Assembly: GCA_944321765.1 (NCBI GenBank)
Contig: CALUMQ010000033.1
Location: 1-49,898, forward strand
DNA from: an uncultured Alistipes sp.
GTDB taxonomy: Bacteria; Bacteroidota; Bacteroidia; Bacteroidales; Rikenellaceae
Length of the DNA stretch: 49,898 nt
Reading direction: 5' to 3'
Below the pieces are notes generated by a model that searched no databases, was not told the origin of the DNA, and was given only the letters and a program-made list of their open reading frames with translations. Below are positions 41,871 through 46,347 of the stretch, piece after piece; positions within the stretch are counted from its first letter, which is position 1, and each line of letters starts with the position of its first letter. The position numbers and the translations under genes were made by a program.

Positions 41871-41960
41871 AGAACCGCTACAGGCCTTCGGAAGCCCTCC
41901 GCACACCGTTTGCGGAGGAGTGTGCTGCTTCAGCCGGTGAAATTTATCGAAGACCTTTCC

Positions 41961-44336
41961 ATGAAACATTTGCAAAATATTCTTTTGGCGACCGCCCTGC
42001 TCGGAGGTTGCCGCATGGCTGCGGCCCAGGATCTGCGGGGCGTGGTGCGTGATGCCGAACGTCAGCCGTTGGCCGGCGCTTCGGTCTACTGGGCCGGGAC
42101 GACCGTCGGCGCCGGTACCGATTCCGAAGGGGCCTTTCTCCTGCACCGTGTAAAGGGGTATGACCTTCTTGTAGCCTCCTTTCTGGGGTATGTCAACGAC
42201 ACGGTCCGCGTGGCGCACGGCTCCGACCATGTCGAGTTCTCGCTGCGCACCGAGGGCGTGGCCCTCGAGGATGTCGTGGTCGAGGGTGCCGTCAGCGGCA
42301 ATTTCGTCAAGCGTGACGGCATCGTCAAGGGCGAGATGATCTCCTTTGCGGGCCTCTGCAAGATGGCCTGCTGCAACCTTGCCGAGTCGTTCGAGAACTC
42401 CGCGTCGGTGACCGTCGGCTACAGCGACGCCATCTCGGGGGCGCGTCAGATCAAGATGCTCGGACTCGCCGGCACCTATACGCAGATCCTCGACGAGAAC
42501 CGCCCGATCATGCGGGGTCTGAGCTCGCCCTACGGTTTGAGCTACACGCCCGGCATGTGGCTCAACTCGATCCAGGTGTCGAAGGGTGTGGCGTCGGTGA
42601 CGGCCGGACACGAGGCCATCACCGGACAGATCAACCTCGAACACCGCAAGCCGACCGACGAAGAGCGGCTCTTCCTGAACCTCTACCTCGACGACGAACT
42701 GCGCCCGGAGGTGAACCTTTCGTCGGCCTTTCCGGTGACGAAGGACAAGCGGCTTTCGAGCATCATCCTGCTTCACGGCTCGATGGACACCGACGTGCGC
42801 AAGATGGACCACAACGACGACGGATTCCGCGACCTGCCGCTTTCGGACCAGATCAACGTGGCCAACAAGTGGCTCTATGCCGCCGACAACGGCACACAGA
42901 TCCGTTGGGGCTGGAAATTCGTGCAGGAGAACCGCCTCGGCGGAATGCTCGGATACCGGAATACCGCGGCCCTGCGCGAGGCGATGACGCGCGACTGGGA
43001 CTGGGAGCAGAAGGATGAGCCGATGCCGCTCTACGGGTCGCACATCCGCAACCGCAATGCCAACGGTTATTTCAAGGTGGGCATGCCCGTGGGCCCGGCG
43101 GTCTACGATGCCGACGAAGCGGAGGAACTGCGTTCGAACCTTGCGTTCGTGGCCGACTACGACCACTTTAACGAGGATGCCTACTTCGGGCTCAACCAAT
43201 ACGACGGAACCCAGCACTCCGTGTCGCTGAATCTGATGTACAACCACTATTTCACTACCCGTTCCTCGCTGATCGTCGGGGCCCAGGCACACCTGGATTA
43301 CTTCCGCGAGGGATTGCTGAACCGTACGCCGTGGATCGCGTCGCTTGCCGCCGCCGACTACGACTTCGACCGCAACGAGCAGGAGGCGGGCCTCTACGCC
43401 GAATATACCTACGCCATCAAGGAGAGGTTTTCCGTCGTGGCGGGCCTGCGCGGAGATTACAACGGCTTCTACGACCGTTTCTTCGCCACGCCCCGCGGCC
43501 ATGTGAAGTGGAACATTACCCCCTCGACGACGCTGCGCGCCTCGGCCGGCCTGGGTTACCGATCGACGAACCTCCTGACCGACAACATCGGCGTGCTGGC
43601 CACCGGTCGGGCGATCCAGCCCGTGGCGTTTCGCGACGGACAGCTGGCGGTCGTGTCGTTCGGCGACATCGACCGCATGGAGAAGGCCCTCACGGTGGGC
43701 GGAAGCCTTACGCAGAGCTTCGGCATCGTCAATCCGGACGACGCGACGCTGAGCATCGACTACTTCCGCACGCAGTTCTACCACTCGGTGGTCACCGACC
43801 AGGAGATGTTTGCCGACCGCATCGTCTTCTACGACACCGACGGACGTTCGTTTACCGATACCTACCAGGTCGACTTCTCGTGGACACCCGTCGAGCGGCT
43901 CGACATCTTCGCGACGTTCCGCTACACGGACAGCGAGATGACGATCCGCCGTGCCGACGGTACGTCGGCGCGCGTCGAACGGCCGCTGATCAGCCGTTAC
44001 AAGACGCTGCTCAACATCCAGTATGCGACGAAATTCCGCCGATGGGTTTTCGACGCCACGGCACAGCTCAACGGACGCTCCCGCATTCCCACGCAGACGG
44101 GCAACCTCGACGACAGCTACTATTCGCCGCGCTACCCGATGTTCTATGCGCAGGTGAGCCGCAAGGTCGGGAAGTTCGATATCTACGTCGGCTGCGAGAA
44201 CATCGCCGACTACATTCAGCATGACCCGATCCTGAATGCCGACAATCCCTACGACTACCGTTTCAACTCGATGAACGTCTGGGGACCGCTCATGGGGCGC
44301 AAGTTTTATGTCGGCATGCGGTTGAATATCTATTAA
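41961..44336 (+). CDS. TonB-dependent outer-membrane receptor (probable metal or metal-complex importer)
   Basis: 791 residues. A signal peptide (MKHLQNILLATALLGGCRMAAAQ) is followed by a carboxypeptidase-like regulatory domain (about 24-110), the plug (about 120-230) and a 22-strand barrel ending in the C-terminal KFYVGMRLNIY. Plug motifs LGLAGTYTQILDENRPIMRGL and VSKGVASVTAGHEAITGQINLE are visible. An unusual C133-x3-CC137/138 cluster (CKMACCNLAES) is in the plug. Start at 41961 is set by the signal peptide; the longer frame from 41910 is not needed. Context (Fur-family gene before, HMA protein after) suggests import of a metal such as copper, zinc or iron, not resolved here. Confidence 0.9.
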   Translation: MKHLQNILLATALLGGCRMAAAQDLRGVVRDAERQPLAGASVYWAGTTVGAGTDSEGAFLLHRVKGYDLLVASFLGYVNDTVRVAHGSDHVEFSLRTEGVALEDVVVEGAVSGNFVKRDGIVKGEMISFAGLCKMACCNLAESFENSASVTVGYSDAISGARQIKMLGLAGTYTQILDENRPIMRGLSSPYGLSYTPGMWLNSIQVSKGVASVTAGHEAITGQINLEHRKPTDEERLFLNLYLDDELRPEVNLSSAFPVTKDKRLSSIILLHGSMDTDVRKMDHNDDGFRDLPLSDQINVANKWLYAADNGTQIRWGWKFVQENRLGGMLGYRNTAALREAMTRDWDWEQKDEPMPLYGSHIRNRNANGYFKVGMPVGPAVYDADEAEELRSNLAFVADYDHFNEDAYFGLNQYDGTQHSVSLNLMYNHYFTTRSSLIVGAQAHLDYFREGLLNRTPWIASLAAADYDFDRNEQEAGLYAEYTYAIKERFSVVAGLRGDYNGFYDRFFATPRGHVKWNITPSTTLRASAGLGYRSTNLLTDNIGVLATGRAIQPVAFRDGQLAVVSFGDIDRMEKALTVGGSLTQSFGIVNPDDATLSIDYFRTQFYHSVVTDQEMFADRIVFYDTDGRSFTDTYQVDFSWTPVERLDIFATFRYTDSEMTIRRADGTSARVERPLISRYKTLLNIQYATKFRRWVFDATAQLNGRSRIPTQTGNLDDSYYSPRYPMFYAQVSRKVGKFDIYVGCENIADYIQHDPILNADNPYDYRFNSMNVWGPLMGRKFYVGMRLNIY

Positions 44337-44372
44337 CAGAGCAACAATTACCTTAAAACAGACAATACGAAG

Positions 44373-44702
44373 ATGAAAAAACTGTTGATCGTGTGCCTGA
44401 CTCTCATGATGGGGACGGGCCTGGCGATGGCTGAGAAGCCCGCCTCGAAGAAGAGTGTGACGACGGTCTTTACGACCGATATCGACTGCGAGCACTGCGT
44501 GCAGAAGATCATGAACAACGTGCCGTCGCTCGGCAAGGGTATCAAGGATGTGCAGGTGGACCTGTCCAAGAAAGAGGTGACCGTCGTTTACGATGCCTCG
44601 AAGAACAACGATGCGAACATTGTCAAGGGCTTTGCCTCGCTCAAGGTAAAGGCCGAGCCGAAGGCTGCTGCCGAAAAGAAGAGCGACGCTCAAAAAAAGT
44701 AG
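44373..44702 (+). CDS. Exported heavy-metal-associated (HMA) domain protein
   Basis: 109 residues. A signal peptide (about 1-20, MKKLLIVCLTLMMGTGLAMA) precedes an HMA fold with the metal-binding CEHC (39-42) and DLSKKEVTVVYD strand. The last 20 residues are Lys/Ala-rich. HMA proteins of this size, exported, act as periplasmic metallochaperones (MerP or CopZ-like). The position directly after the TonB-dependent receptor, 36 bases away, suggests it takes up the imported metal in the periplasm. The terminator at 44725-44754 follows. Confidence 0.9.
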   Translation: MKKLLIVCLTLMMGTGLAMAEKPASKKSVTTVFTTDIDCEHCVQKIMNNVPSLGKGIKDVQVDLSKKEVTVVYDASKNNDANIVKGFASLKVKAEPKAAAEKKSDAQKK

Positions 44703-44787: not shown

Positions 44788-45252
44788 CTATTTGCGCAGG
44801 GATGCGATCCGCCGCCGGATCAGCAGATCGGCGATGAGCAGCGCGAGTCCCGCTGCGGCCAGCAGCCCGCACAACTTCCATAGTCCGACGTCCCCCGGAA
44901 CGTGTGCCGACAGGTCGAGTTGTGGCAGCGACAGGTCGAGTTGTGGCCATGCCCAGTCGGTCTCCGACACGGTTCCTCCGTCCGGCAGCGGCTTGAACAA
45001 CGACAACTCTGATCCATCCGGACCTTCCGCCTCCCGGGTGAGGAGCCATCGTCCCGCGGCGGCCAGCCCCGCCAGCACTCCGGCGCTGCAGACTCCCGCC
45101 AGCACCCCTTCGATGTGCCGCCTCCGCCGCTCGGCACGGTGCAGACGCTCCATCACCCGTGCCGTAAGGTCTGCGGGCGGCTCGGGGACCGGAATCCGTC
45201 CGGCAGCCCGGCGAATCGCTTCACTCCGTTTCATCCGTTGTTGCTGTTTCAT
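44788..45252 (-). CDS. Membrane protein downstream of ECF sigma factor, anti-sigma-like
   Basis: 154 residues. A basic cytoplasmic N-terminus (about 1-45) leads to a membrane segment (about 47-68), a middle region containing the repeat PQLDLS-L-PQLDLS, and a second segment (about 123-143), with a short basic end. No HxxxCxxC zinc anti-sigma motif is visible. Position directly after and overlapping the sigma gene by 32 bases is the usual place for an anti-sigma factor, so that role is inferred from context alone. The DNA holds two identical 18-base units (44909-44926 and 44930-44947). Confidence 0.75.
   Translation of the reverse strand: MKQQQRMKRSEAIRRAAGRIPVPEPPADLTARVMERLHRAERRRRHIEGVLAGVCSAGVLAGLAAAGRWLLTREAEGPDGSELSLFKPLPDGGTVSETDWAWPQLDLSLPQLDLSAHVPGDVGLWKLCGLLAAAGLALLIADLLIRRRIASLRK
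44909..44947. repeat. Tandem 18-base repeat inside the anti-sigma-like gene
   Basis: Plus-strand GACAGGTCGAGTTGTGGC occurs at 44909-44926 and again at 44930-44947, 21 bases apart, encoding PQLDLS twice with one residue between. Confidence 0.85.
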
Positions 45253-45796
45253 CCTTAACCATCAGGTATAATTTCTTACGCAGGCGATGCAGCCGCACCT
45301 TGACGTTGCTCTCCGAGAGCTCCAGAATTGCGGCGCATTCGCTGACCGGGCGCTCTTCGTAGTAGAAGAGCGTTACCAGGGCCCGTTCCGCGGGTTCGAG
45401 CCTCGCGACGGCACGCGTCAGCGCTTCGAGCTGTCGCTCGTGCACCGCCCACTCCTCCATCCGTTCAACCTCCTCGTCGGGCAGCAGGACCAGGCGTCGC
45501 TCGTCGATCTCCGTATAATGGCGCCGCGTGCGTCGTGCGCGCGTGAGCGCTTCGTTGCAGGCGATGCGGTAGATCCAGGTCCGGAAGCTGCTCCGGCCTT
45601 CGAAACGGTCGAGCCGGCTGAATGCCTTCAGAAAGGCATCCTGCGTCACCTCTTCGGCCTCTTCCGGGCGATCGACGATTCGTGCGACCAATGCATAAAC
45701 CATCCGTCCGTAGCGGTCGACCAGATGTCCGTACAGCCGGGTCTCTCCGCTGCGAATGCGTCGTATGAGTTCCACTTCCTGATCTTCGCTCTGCAT
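45221..45796 (-). CDS. ECF-type RNA polymerase sigma factor
   Basis: 191 residues. Region 2 covers about residues 20-85 (HLVDRYGRMVYALVARIVDRPEEAEEVTQDAFLKAFSRLDRF, then SSFRTWIYRIACNEAL), and region 4 about 125-175 (LEPAERALVTLFYYEERPVSECAAILELSESNVKVRLHRLRKKL). Regions 1 and 3 are absent, as in ECF sigmas. Upstream lies a matching ECF-type promoter (45805-45834), ending 8 bases before the ATG, so the mRNA would be nearly leaderless. It overlaps the membrane protein gene by 32 bases and is divergent from another membrane-protein gene. Confidence 0.93.
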   Translation of the reverse strand: MQSEDQEVELIRRIRSGETRLYGHLVDRYGRMVYALVARIVDRPEEAEEVTQDAFLKAFSRLDRFEGRSSFRTWIYRIACNEALTRARRTRRHYTEIDERRLVLLPDEEVERMEEWAVHERQLEALTRAVARLEPAERALVTLFYYEERPVSECAAILELSESNVKVRLHRLRKKLYLMVKDETATTDETE

Positions 45797-45804
45797 GACA
45801 TTTC

Positions 45805-45834
45805 GTTAGACGCCGCCTTCGGCAAAAGGTTACA
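45805..45834 (-). promoter_or_regulatory. ECF-type promoter for the sigma gene (autoregulation)
   Basis: On the reverse strand TGTAACC (45834-45828) and CGTCTAAC (45812-45805), with AAC and CGTC separated by 16 bases. It mirrors the promoter at 45858-45887 about 45846. Confidence 0.7.
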
Positions 45835-45857
45835 TCCGCAGAAAAAAATCGGCCTGC

Positions 45858-45887
45858 TGTAACCTTTTTGCATGACGGGCGTCTAAC
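45858..45887 (+). promoter_or_regulatory. ECF-type promoter for the divergent membrane protein
   Basis: TGTAACC (45858-45864) and CGTCTAAC (45880-45887), with AAC and CGTC separated by 16 bases; AAC in -35 and CGTC in -10 are the usual ECF pattern. About 45 bases to the ATG at 45940. Confidence 0.7.
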
Positions 45888-45939
45888 AGAGCAAAGGTCG
45901 CAAAAAGAGAAGTAAAACCATTAAAAAATCGTTTGAATC

Positions 45940-46347
45940 ATGCTGGATTTTATTGTCGTGCCGTTGGTGGTCGGAATGATCACACTGGGGGTTTACAAAT
46001 TCTTCGAACTGCTCGTCTGCCGTCGCGAACGGCTCAACATCATCGAGAAACTCGATCCGGGCGCGTTGATCGACTATCTGAAGAACGTCCGGTTGGGGCT
46101 TCCGCTTGATGCCCTGACTACGGGTGGACGTACAAGCGCATTCTCGTCCGGAGCGCTGCGCCTGGGGTGTTTGCTGGTGGGCCTGGGACTCGGGCTGCTT
46201 GTCGGATACTGGATCGTGGCCTGCGATCCCGATATTGGATACGCCCAGAGTGTCGTGTATGGCGGTTCGGTGCTTTGCTTCGGGGGAATGGGCTTGATTG
46301 TCGCCTTCATCGTCGAGCGTCTGGTCAGCCGCAAGGATCGCGCCTGA
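45940..46347 (+). CDS. Small inner-membrane protein, DUF6249-like
   Basis: 135 residues. Three hydrophobic segments: about 3-25, 72-93 and 101-125, with a basic loop between the first two (CRRERLNIIEKLDPGALIDYLKN). By memory this resembles the DUF6249 proteins that often lie near ECF sigma genes in Bacteroidetes; the match is moderate and the function unknown. It is transcribed away from the sigma gene and preceded by an ECF-type promoter, which suggests it belongs to the same regulon. A terminator follows at 46369-46402. Confidence 0.82.
   Translation: MLDFIVVPLVVGMITLGVYKFFELLVCRRERLNIIEKLDPGALIDYLKNVRLGLPLDALTTGGRTSAFSSGALRLGCLLVGLGLGLLVGYWIVACDPDIGYAQSVVYGGSVLCFGGMGLIVAFIVERLVSRKDRA

Follow-up and report, generated by a model that had tools for sequence, protein, structure and literature searches.

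Paired ECF-type promoter candidates between a sigma factor gene and a divergent DUF6249 gene in Alistipes and other Bacteroidota

Autoregulated operons that join an ECF sigma factor to a membrane anti-sigma factor are well known, examples being SigW and SigM of Bacillus subtilis and RpoE of Escherichia coli. In Bacteroides and Phocaeicola, the accessible parts of three reports (PMC9308784, PMC13114119, PMC13088901) describe the EcfO/Reo and Das/Dma systems, whose own genes are strongly induced when the systems are active, and Das2 is described there as ECF21. Searches of the literature did not find a description of the module considered below, which is no proof that it is unpublished; those on DUF6249 gave nothing pertinent, an unrelated plant paper aside, and those on TGTAAC with CGTC and ECF sigma factors found nothing. 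TGTAAC has no occurrence in the accessible main text, figures aside, of a paper on the B. thetaiotaomicron ECF factors (PMC12596196).

Here we analyse a locus in a 49,898-nucleotide stretch of DNA from an uncultured Alistipes sp. (the window). On our reading of the sequence, the locus very probably holds two back-to-back promoters, both served by the adjacent ECF sigma factor, one for an autoregulated sigma/anti-sigma operon and the other for a divergent DUF6249 gene.

The paired motif and its genes in the window

The features of the locus are collected in Table 1. The sigma protein has the architecture of an ECF factor, with only regions 2 and 4 in about 190 aa; profile searches matched it to Pfam Sigma70_r2 (1e-18) and Sigma70_r4_2 (1.3e-13), it scores 108.3 bits against NCBIfam sigma70-ECF (cut-off 42.9), and its nearest named relative among the matches listed is an Alistipes record (57%). 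The divergent gene product scores 35.6 bits against PF19762, over the cut-off of 33 for DUF6249, and its gene gives the single PF19762 match at E <= 1 in its own genome; the structure model of the DUF6249 protein is of low certainty (pTM 0.47). The identities first proposed for the two genes, a sigma factor and a divergent DUF6249-like protein, are thus upheld by the Pfam matches. Elsewhere in the window, a TonB-dependent receptor-type gene and then a heavy-metal-associated (HMA) domain gene lie at 41910-44702 on the forward strand.

Table 1. Positions of the candidate promoters and genes of the locus in the window
Feature	Position	Strand	Details
Probable membrane anti-sigma factor gene	44788..45252	(-)	154 aa as listed, two predicted TM helices
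ECF-type sigma factor gene	45221..45796	(-)	191 aa; regions 2 and 4
Candidate sigma-gene promoter	45807..45834	(-)	-35 TGTAAC 45834-45829, 16-nt spacer, -10 CGTCTA 45812-45807; exact match
Candidate DUF6249-gene promoter	45858..45885	(+)	-35 TGTAAC 45858-45863, 16-nt spacer, -10 CGTCTA 45880-45885; exact match
DUF6249 membrane protein gene, divergent partner	45940..46347	(+)	135 aa, 3 predicted TM helices

The original prediction placed AAC and CGTC 16 bases apart on both strands, which agrees with the sequence, and both arms have the make-up of ECF-type promoters (AAC in the -35, CGTC in the -10, 16-17 nt apart). The repeat comprises four blocks, GTTAGACGCC (45805-45814), AAAAGGTTACA (45824-45834), TGTAACCTTTT (45858-45868) and GGCGTCTAAC (45878-45887), forming two inverted-repeat pairs that are 100% complementary and, as had been proposed, symmetric about 45846. 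The A-rich centre is likewise present, with seven A at 45842-45848. Compared over 30 bases, the arms are alike at 22 of 30 positions, 21 of which fall within the -35 block TGTAACCTTTT and the -10 block GGCGTCTAAC. The string originally offered for scanning, TGTAAC-N15-CGTCTA, has a spacer that is off by one, the correct form being TGTAAC-N16-CGTCTA.

A scan of the window's own genome (2,313,139 bases in 40 contigs, 88.63% complete), which the prediction had called for, gave exactly two exact matches to the corrected string, both at the window locus. Imperfect matches in this genome are uninformative by themselves because they lie at or below the chance or control level. At up to 2 mismatches the scan gave 63 matches and its reversed control 231, an extended motif at up to 3 mismatches gave 38 against 49 for its reversed control, and the window at up to 3 mismatches gave 19 where 19.9 were expected. 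Follow-up covered the exact matches of each pattern, plus one weak match upstream of another ECF gene. The latter (G000:C19:58465-58492, CGTTACC...CGTATA) was rejected because it continues into TATATTTG, which is a -7 box of housekeeping type 25 nt upstream of that gene's ATG.

Recurrence of the motif and of the partner gene

We assessed conservation in 105 related loci, namely 25 from 61 relative genomes (own included), of which 20 have a sigma match at E <= 1e-20, and the best 80 of 493 GTDB loci; L080, L081, L082 and L106 are near-duplicates within this sample. The strict pattern was TGTAAC-N15..17-[C/G]GTC within 300 bases upstream of the sigma match. Of these loci, the best 80 of 493 included, 33 had it on each strand; a further 16 had a site for the sigma gene alone, 2 had one for the divergent gene alone and 54 had none, so that a sigma-side site is present in 49/105 and a divergent-side site in 35/105. 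With identity taken relative to the window sigma factor (best segment for the GTDB loci), the class at >=40% held 18 loci with both sites, 9 with the sigma side only, 1 with the divergent side only and 3 with none (n = 31). The corresponding counts were 10, 5, 0 and 13 at 35-40% (n = 28), and 5, 2, 1 and 38 below 35% (n = 46). Dinucleotide shuffles (50 per locus) gave at most 0.08 expected sites per strand and identity class and no locus with both. Conservation next to related sigma genes was a test that the original prediction had set for itself, and at >=40% identity, again counting the best 80 of 493, the motif is found on at least one strand in 28/31 loci (27/30 without the window's own) and on both strands in 18/31 (17/30). 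The spacer is N16 in 34 of the 49 sigma-side and 26 of the 35 divergent sites of this sample, N17 in 12 and 9, and N15 in 3 and 0, respectively.

A tree of 102 of the sigma proteins (L081, L082 and L097 left out) was rooted at its midpoint, with support of 92/90 for the dividing split. At least one site accompanies 46 of the 52 rows on one side of the midpoint and 3 of the 50 on the other, and 6 of the 54 loci without the strict motif sit on the motif-rich side (sample with the best 80 of 493). The three motif-bearers on the motif-poor side (L132, L142 and L163) each have a divergent ORF belonging to the DUF6249 set. When the tree labels were shuffled 500 times, none of the shuffles was as low as the data for 'none' or for 'both', and one was for 'one'. 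Motif-bearing sigma factors are clustered in the tree; a single origin is not demonstrated. Among the matches listed, paired-motif loci occur in Bacteroidales, Flavobacteriaceae, Chitinophagaceae and a record named Chlorobiota. Inspection by eye shows drift of the -10 in some Chitinophagaceae and Flavobacteriaceae, for example to GTAGTC.

The third gene of the window locus overlaps the sigma gene, and use of an internal ATG at 45234 would yield a 14-nt overlap, as in several relatives. Its product has no Pfam match and no curated family over cut-off (16.1 bits against NCBIfam 'antisigma', cut-off 100). The structure model predicts helices at residues 2-19, 29-74 and 123-153, with a helical N-terminus, at low certainty (pTM 0.45). 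An ORF of 90-190 aa that encodes a TM helix starts near the sigma stop in 47 of the 51 loci with a site, and in the remaining four such an ORF is present with a frame that opens at an earlier GTG; loci without a site have one in 16 of 54 cases (both counts include the best 80 of 493). Position, size and TM helices make this short membrane protein a likely anti-sigma factor.

We then consider the divergent partner. Thirty-nine divergent ORFs were scanned, from 31 of the 33 double loci and from 8 others that appeared similar by eye (best 80 of 493 included); the double loci left out were L083 and L107 (merged frame, contig end). DUF6249 was matched at E <= 0.01 in 38/39, the miss being L103, and at least 30 of the 31 double loci scanned have DUF6249 as their divergent gene. 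The divergent ORF of L083 gave a sub-threshold PF19762 score of 21.7 bits, and G001 too gave a sub-threshold match only. Within the genus, PF19762 was matched (E <= 0.001) in 4/9 sigma-bearing versus 0/28 sigma-lacking genomes. Outside the genus it was matched in 7/11 genomes with a sigma match (E <= 1e-20) versus 6/13 without, and some of the DUF6249 genes there lie on contigs other than that of the sigma gene. Given this looser link, DUF6249 is not confined to the sigma module.

Other layouts are also seen. L095 (1101-1484) and L133 (1922-2470) each have a DUF6249 gene (57.4 and 38.7 bits) that is co-directional with the sigma gene and stops shortly before it, and such a promoter was not found with the co-directional gene at either locus; L113 resembles them by eye over 96 bases. 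In four genomes of the same genus (G020, G024, G027 and G034) a 3-TM partner lies downstream of the sigma gene, co-directional and behind its own promoter copy with a -10 of CAGTCTA or CGTCAA. Against PF19762 these relocated partners score below threshold in G024 (20.0 bits) and G020 (18.2 bits), and the partners of L103, G027 and G034 have no match at E <= 1. The two relocated partners that were compared share 47% and 45% identity with the divergent protein of L103, a locus that keeps the divergent pair and is sister in the tree to the sigma group with relocated partners.

The gap from arm to arm ranges from 2 to 202 bases over the 33 double loci (best 80 of 493 included). Since the partner gene has been relocated with a promoter copy of its own, the arms follow the genes, and together with the variable gap this points to two independent back-to-back promoters rather than a fixed palindrome. 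The perfect two-block symmetry about 45846 would also suit a palindromic operator through which a dimeric repressor or activator controls both genes, the likeness to ECF promoters being incidental. Such an operator needs a fixed half-site spacing, and the observed gaps do not provide one; moreover, the sigma-side arm stands alone in 16 loci of the sample with its best 80 of 493, and each arm is oriented from -35 to -10 toward its own gene. Nothing speaks more strongly against a symmetric operator shared by the two genes than the presence of an arm in front of the partner gene at its new place. We regard an operator of this kind as extremely improbable and as already largely refuted by the variable spacing. 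Of the original proposal, then, transcription of the sigma gene and its divergent neighbour by this sigma factor withstands the conservation test and is supported by comparison, and the single symmetric control region is too strong a reading in view of the gaps and the relocated partners. Nor can mutual exclusion of polymerases be a conserved property, because the gaps reach 202 bases.

A further reading takes the sigma-side arm alone as an autoregulatory promoter and the divergent arm as a fossil or weak site, as might be suggested by the 16/49 loci where a sigma-side site has no strict divergent counterpart. We find this scarcely credible in view of the 33 loci in which the divergent arm has the sequence and spacing of the sigma arm (both counts from the sample with the best 80 of 493), of the DUF6249 gene that follows it in nearly every double locus scanned, and of the promoter copies that precede relocated partners. 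The window arms are most likely two promoters of the window sigma factor. Because the back-to-back layout with the same motif recurs in many Bacteroidota, our analysis suggests that the sigma factor and the DUF6249 gene would be switched on as one module.

Transcript leaders and further motif sites

Transcripts of ECF promoters usually start 6-9 nt after the -10. On the sigma side, the first in-frame ATG follows the end of the -10 hexamer at a distance of 6-12 nt in 44/49 loci (best 80 of 493 included), so that a leader of about 0-5 nt, and hence a nearly leaderless sigma mRNA, is predicted. The other five distances are 0, 1, 2, 2 and 26 nt, and in two of these loci, L100 and L135 (distances of 1 and 2 nt), another in-frame ATG follows at 10 and 11. 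On the divergent side the distance is 24-117 nt, with 40-50 nt in 19 of the 34 measurable sites (of 35) in the same sample, best 80 of 493 included, and an A-rich CAAA is conserved at the expected start. In the window, the sigma mRNA is expected to start near 45800-45798, 2-4 nt before the ATG, and the DUF6249 mRNA near 45892-45894.

The accessible part of PMC7366714 gives about 3.7% of B. thetaiotaomicron leaders as shorter than 10 nt, describes the phylum as lacking Shine-Dalgarno sequences, and reports TAnnTTTG as the consensus of the Bacteroidota housekeeping -7 box. We found this box fused to the -35, as TAnnTTTGTAAC, in 13/49 sigma-side and 0/35 divergent sites (best 80 of 493 included; examples are L084, L089, L103, L116 and L126), at least 5 of the 13 loci being close relatives. 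Prefix shuffles gave a mean of 1.0 and never reached 13 in 1000. Over the intergenic regions of the 33 double loci, drawn from the same sample with its best 80 of 493, TAnnTTTG points toward the sigma gene in 14 and toward DUF6249 in 1; that of the window (L075) has no such box in either direction. Where present, the -7 box would give a basal, normally leadered transcript competing with the ECF promoter.

Across the 61 genomes, TGTAACCTTT-N12-CGTCTAA with at most one mismatch gave 23 matches in 13 genomes, the reversed control giving 2; 16 of the 23 lie at sigma or partner genes and 11 of the 13 genomes have the sigma gene. In 7 further genomes TGTAACC-N15-CGTCWAA gave 15 exact matches, 13 of them at sigma/DUF6249 loci, and 0 in controls. 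The motif thus serves, as originally suggested, as a usable string for genome searches; the regulon it was meant to reveal has almost no other genome sites and looks tiny.

Both arms could be ECF promoters and yet be recognised by another of the cell's ECF sigma factors. The sequence by itself does not tell which sigma factor recognises the motif, alternatives are available among the 15 Sigma70_r4_2 matches of the own genome (13 over cut-off), and G018 and G054, two of the 13 relatives with the motif at up to one mismatch, have no sigma orthologue at E <= 1e-20 and carry single imperfect sites. Against this, the other 11 have a window-type sigma gene, most sites adjoin it, and no exact motif copy was found upstream of any other ECF gene in the own genome. 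We therefore judge recognition by another sigma factor to be very unlikely and retain the adjacent sigma factor as the probable one.

Eight other sites fall in sigma-bearing genomes, seven of them from the two scans above (G013, G016, G024, G041, G051, G063 and G067) and one in the own genome, and thioredoxin-fold genes lie behind four of them: those of the own genome, G016 and G067, over Pfam cut-offs, and that of G013, where the match is below cut-off and the frame is cut by the locus end. With 13 Thioredoxin_8 matches in the own genome (12 over cut-off), four of eight is well above a rough expectation of less than one. Three of the four genomes belong to one genus, and the four proteins are alike only over short stretches. 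An envelope or thiol theme of the regulon is a lead, no more.

The own-genome site (G000:C1:223677-223704; L009:1501-1528), found with the looser extended pattern, reads TGCAACCTTTT-N11-CGTCAA (TGCAACC...CGTCAA) and lies 120 nt upstream of a gene for a 629-aa thioredoxin-fold lipoprotein (L073:5826-7715). The G013 orthologue of the lipoprotein (84% identical) has TATAACC...CGTCTAAC with a 15-nt spacer 205 nt upstream. No upstream site is seen for the orthologues of G015, which lacks the sigma gene, or of G001, which has it, and those in G036 and G016 start at a contig end and fall outside the comparison. The site is possibly a third own-genome target, with weak conservation. Among the other sites, a motif copy in G041 (C16:5465-5493; L182) lies 22 nt upstream of a PspC-domain gene. 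Phocaeicola vulgatus ATCC 8482 (G063; L207) has an exact TGTAACC-N15-CGTCTAA at NC_009614 1539904-1539932, 65 nt upstream of an outer-membrane-type gene with a CarboxypepD_reg domain. The G051 site is, by eye, upstream of an ABC-transporter-like ATPase gene, and the extra site of G024 has no clear gene behind it.

Proposed mechanism and comparison with known systems

In the mechanism that we propose, an envelope signal would free the sigma factor from the short membrane anti-sigma factor. The freed sigma factor would transcribe its own sigma/anti-sigma operon, giving positive feedback together with re-synthesis of the inhibitor, and, if it is the factor that recognises the motif, would also transcribe the divergent DUF6249 membrane protein gene. 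From the predicted start points, the self-made sigma mRNA would be nearly leaderless and the DUF6249 mRNA would carry an ordinary leader. An extension that we hold to be unlikely is an envelope module of three parts, found throughout the Bacteroidota, with DUF6249 as a dedicated third regulator of the sigma/anti-sigma pair. In several lineages of this extended model the sigma factor would come from two mRNAs, a basal leadered one, made from a housekeeping promoter with a -7 box overlapping the ECF -35, and a near-leaderless one from its own promoter; if true, positive feedback would also alter translation of the sigma factor.

For a sigma family of Bacteroides, Phocaeicola, Alistipes and several Flavobacteriaceae, the analysis supplies a conserved partner gene as well as a promoter motif and a compact candidate regulon. 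It would thereby place DUF6249, a membrane family of unknown function, in a signalling pathway. The distance of 6-12 nt from -10 to ATG is a clear prediction of nearly leaderless translation in a phylum described, in the accessible part of PMC7366714, as without Shine-Dalgarno sequences.

The module resembles the SigW, SigM and RpoE operons in its AAC-type -35, CGTC-type -10 and 16-nt spacer, and in having a membrane protein gene behind the sigma gene and the sigma factor's own promoter in front of it. It differs from them in having a second promoter copy, on the other strand, for DUF6249, and in a -10 that lies only 6-12 nt before the start codon in the great majority of related loci (44/49, best 80 of 493 included). 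Within the phylum, the accessible part of PMC12596196 includes transmembrane BT0247 and lipoproteins in the set co-expressed with the B. thetaiotaomicron ECF factor BT0248, a likeness that serves as a lead only. SigH of Porphyromonas gingivalis and SigH-1/SigR-1 of B. thetaiotaomicron (ECF114) are likewise Bacteroidota stress ECF factors in the parts of the reports accessible (PMC8999054, PMC12596196); unlike the window module as proposed, ECF114 SigH is tabulated in the latter among ECFs without an anti-sigma factor. Like EcfO/Reo and Das/Dma, as far as the accessible parts of those reports describe them, the module would be a Bacteroidota ECF sigma/anti-sigma pair in an envelope setting. The anti-sigma factors of those systems reach an outer-membrane beta-barrel, whereas the window candidate, at 154 aa with two predicted TM helices, has neither the very large size nor the C-terminal beta-barrel of the EcfO/Reo type.
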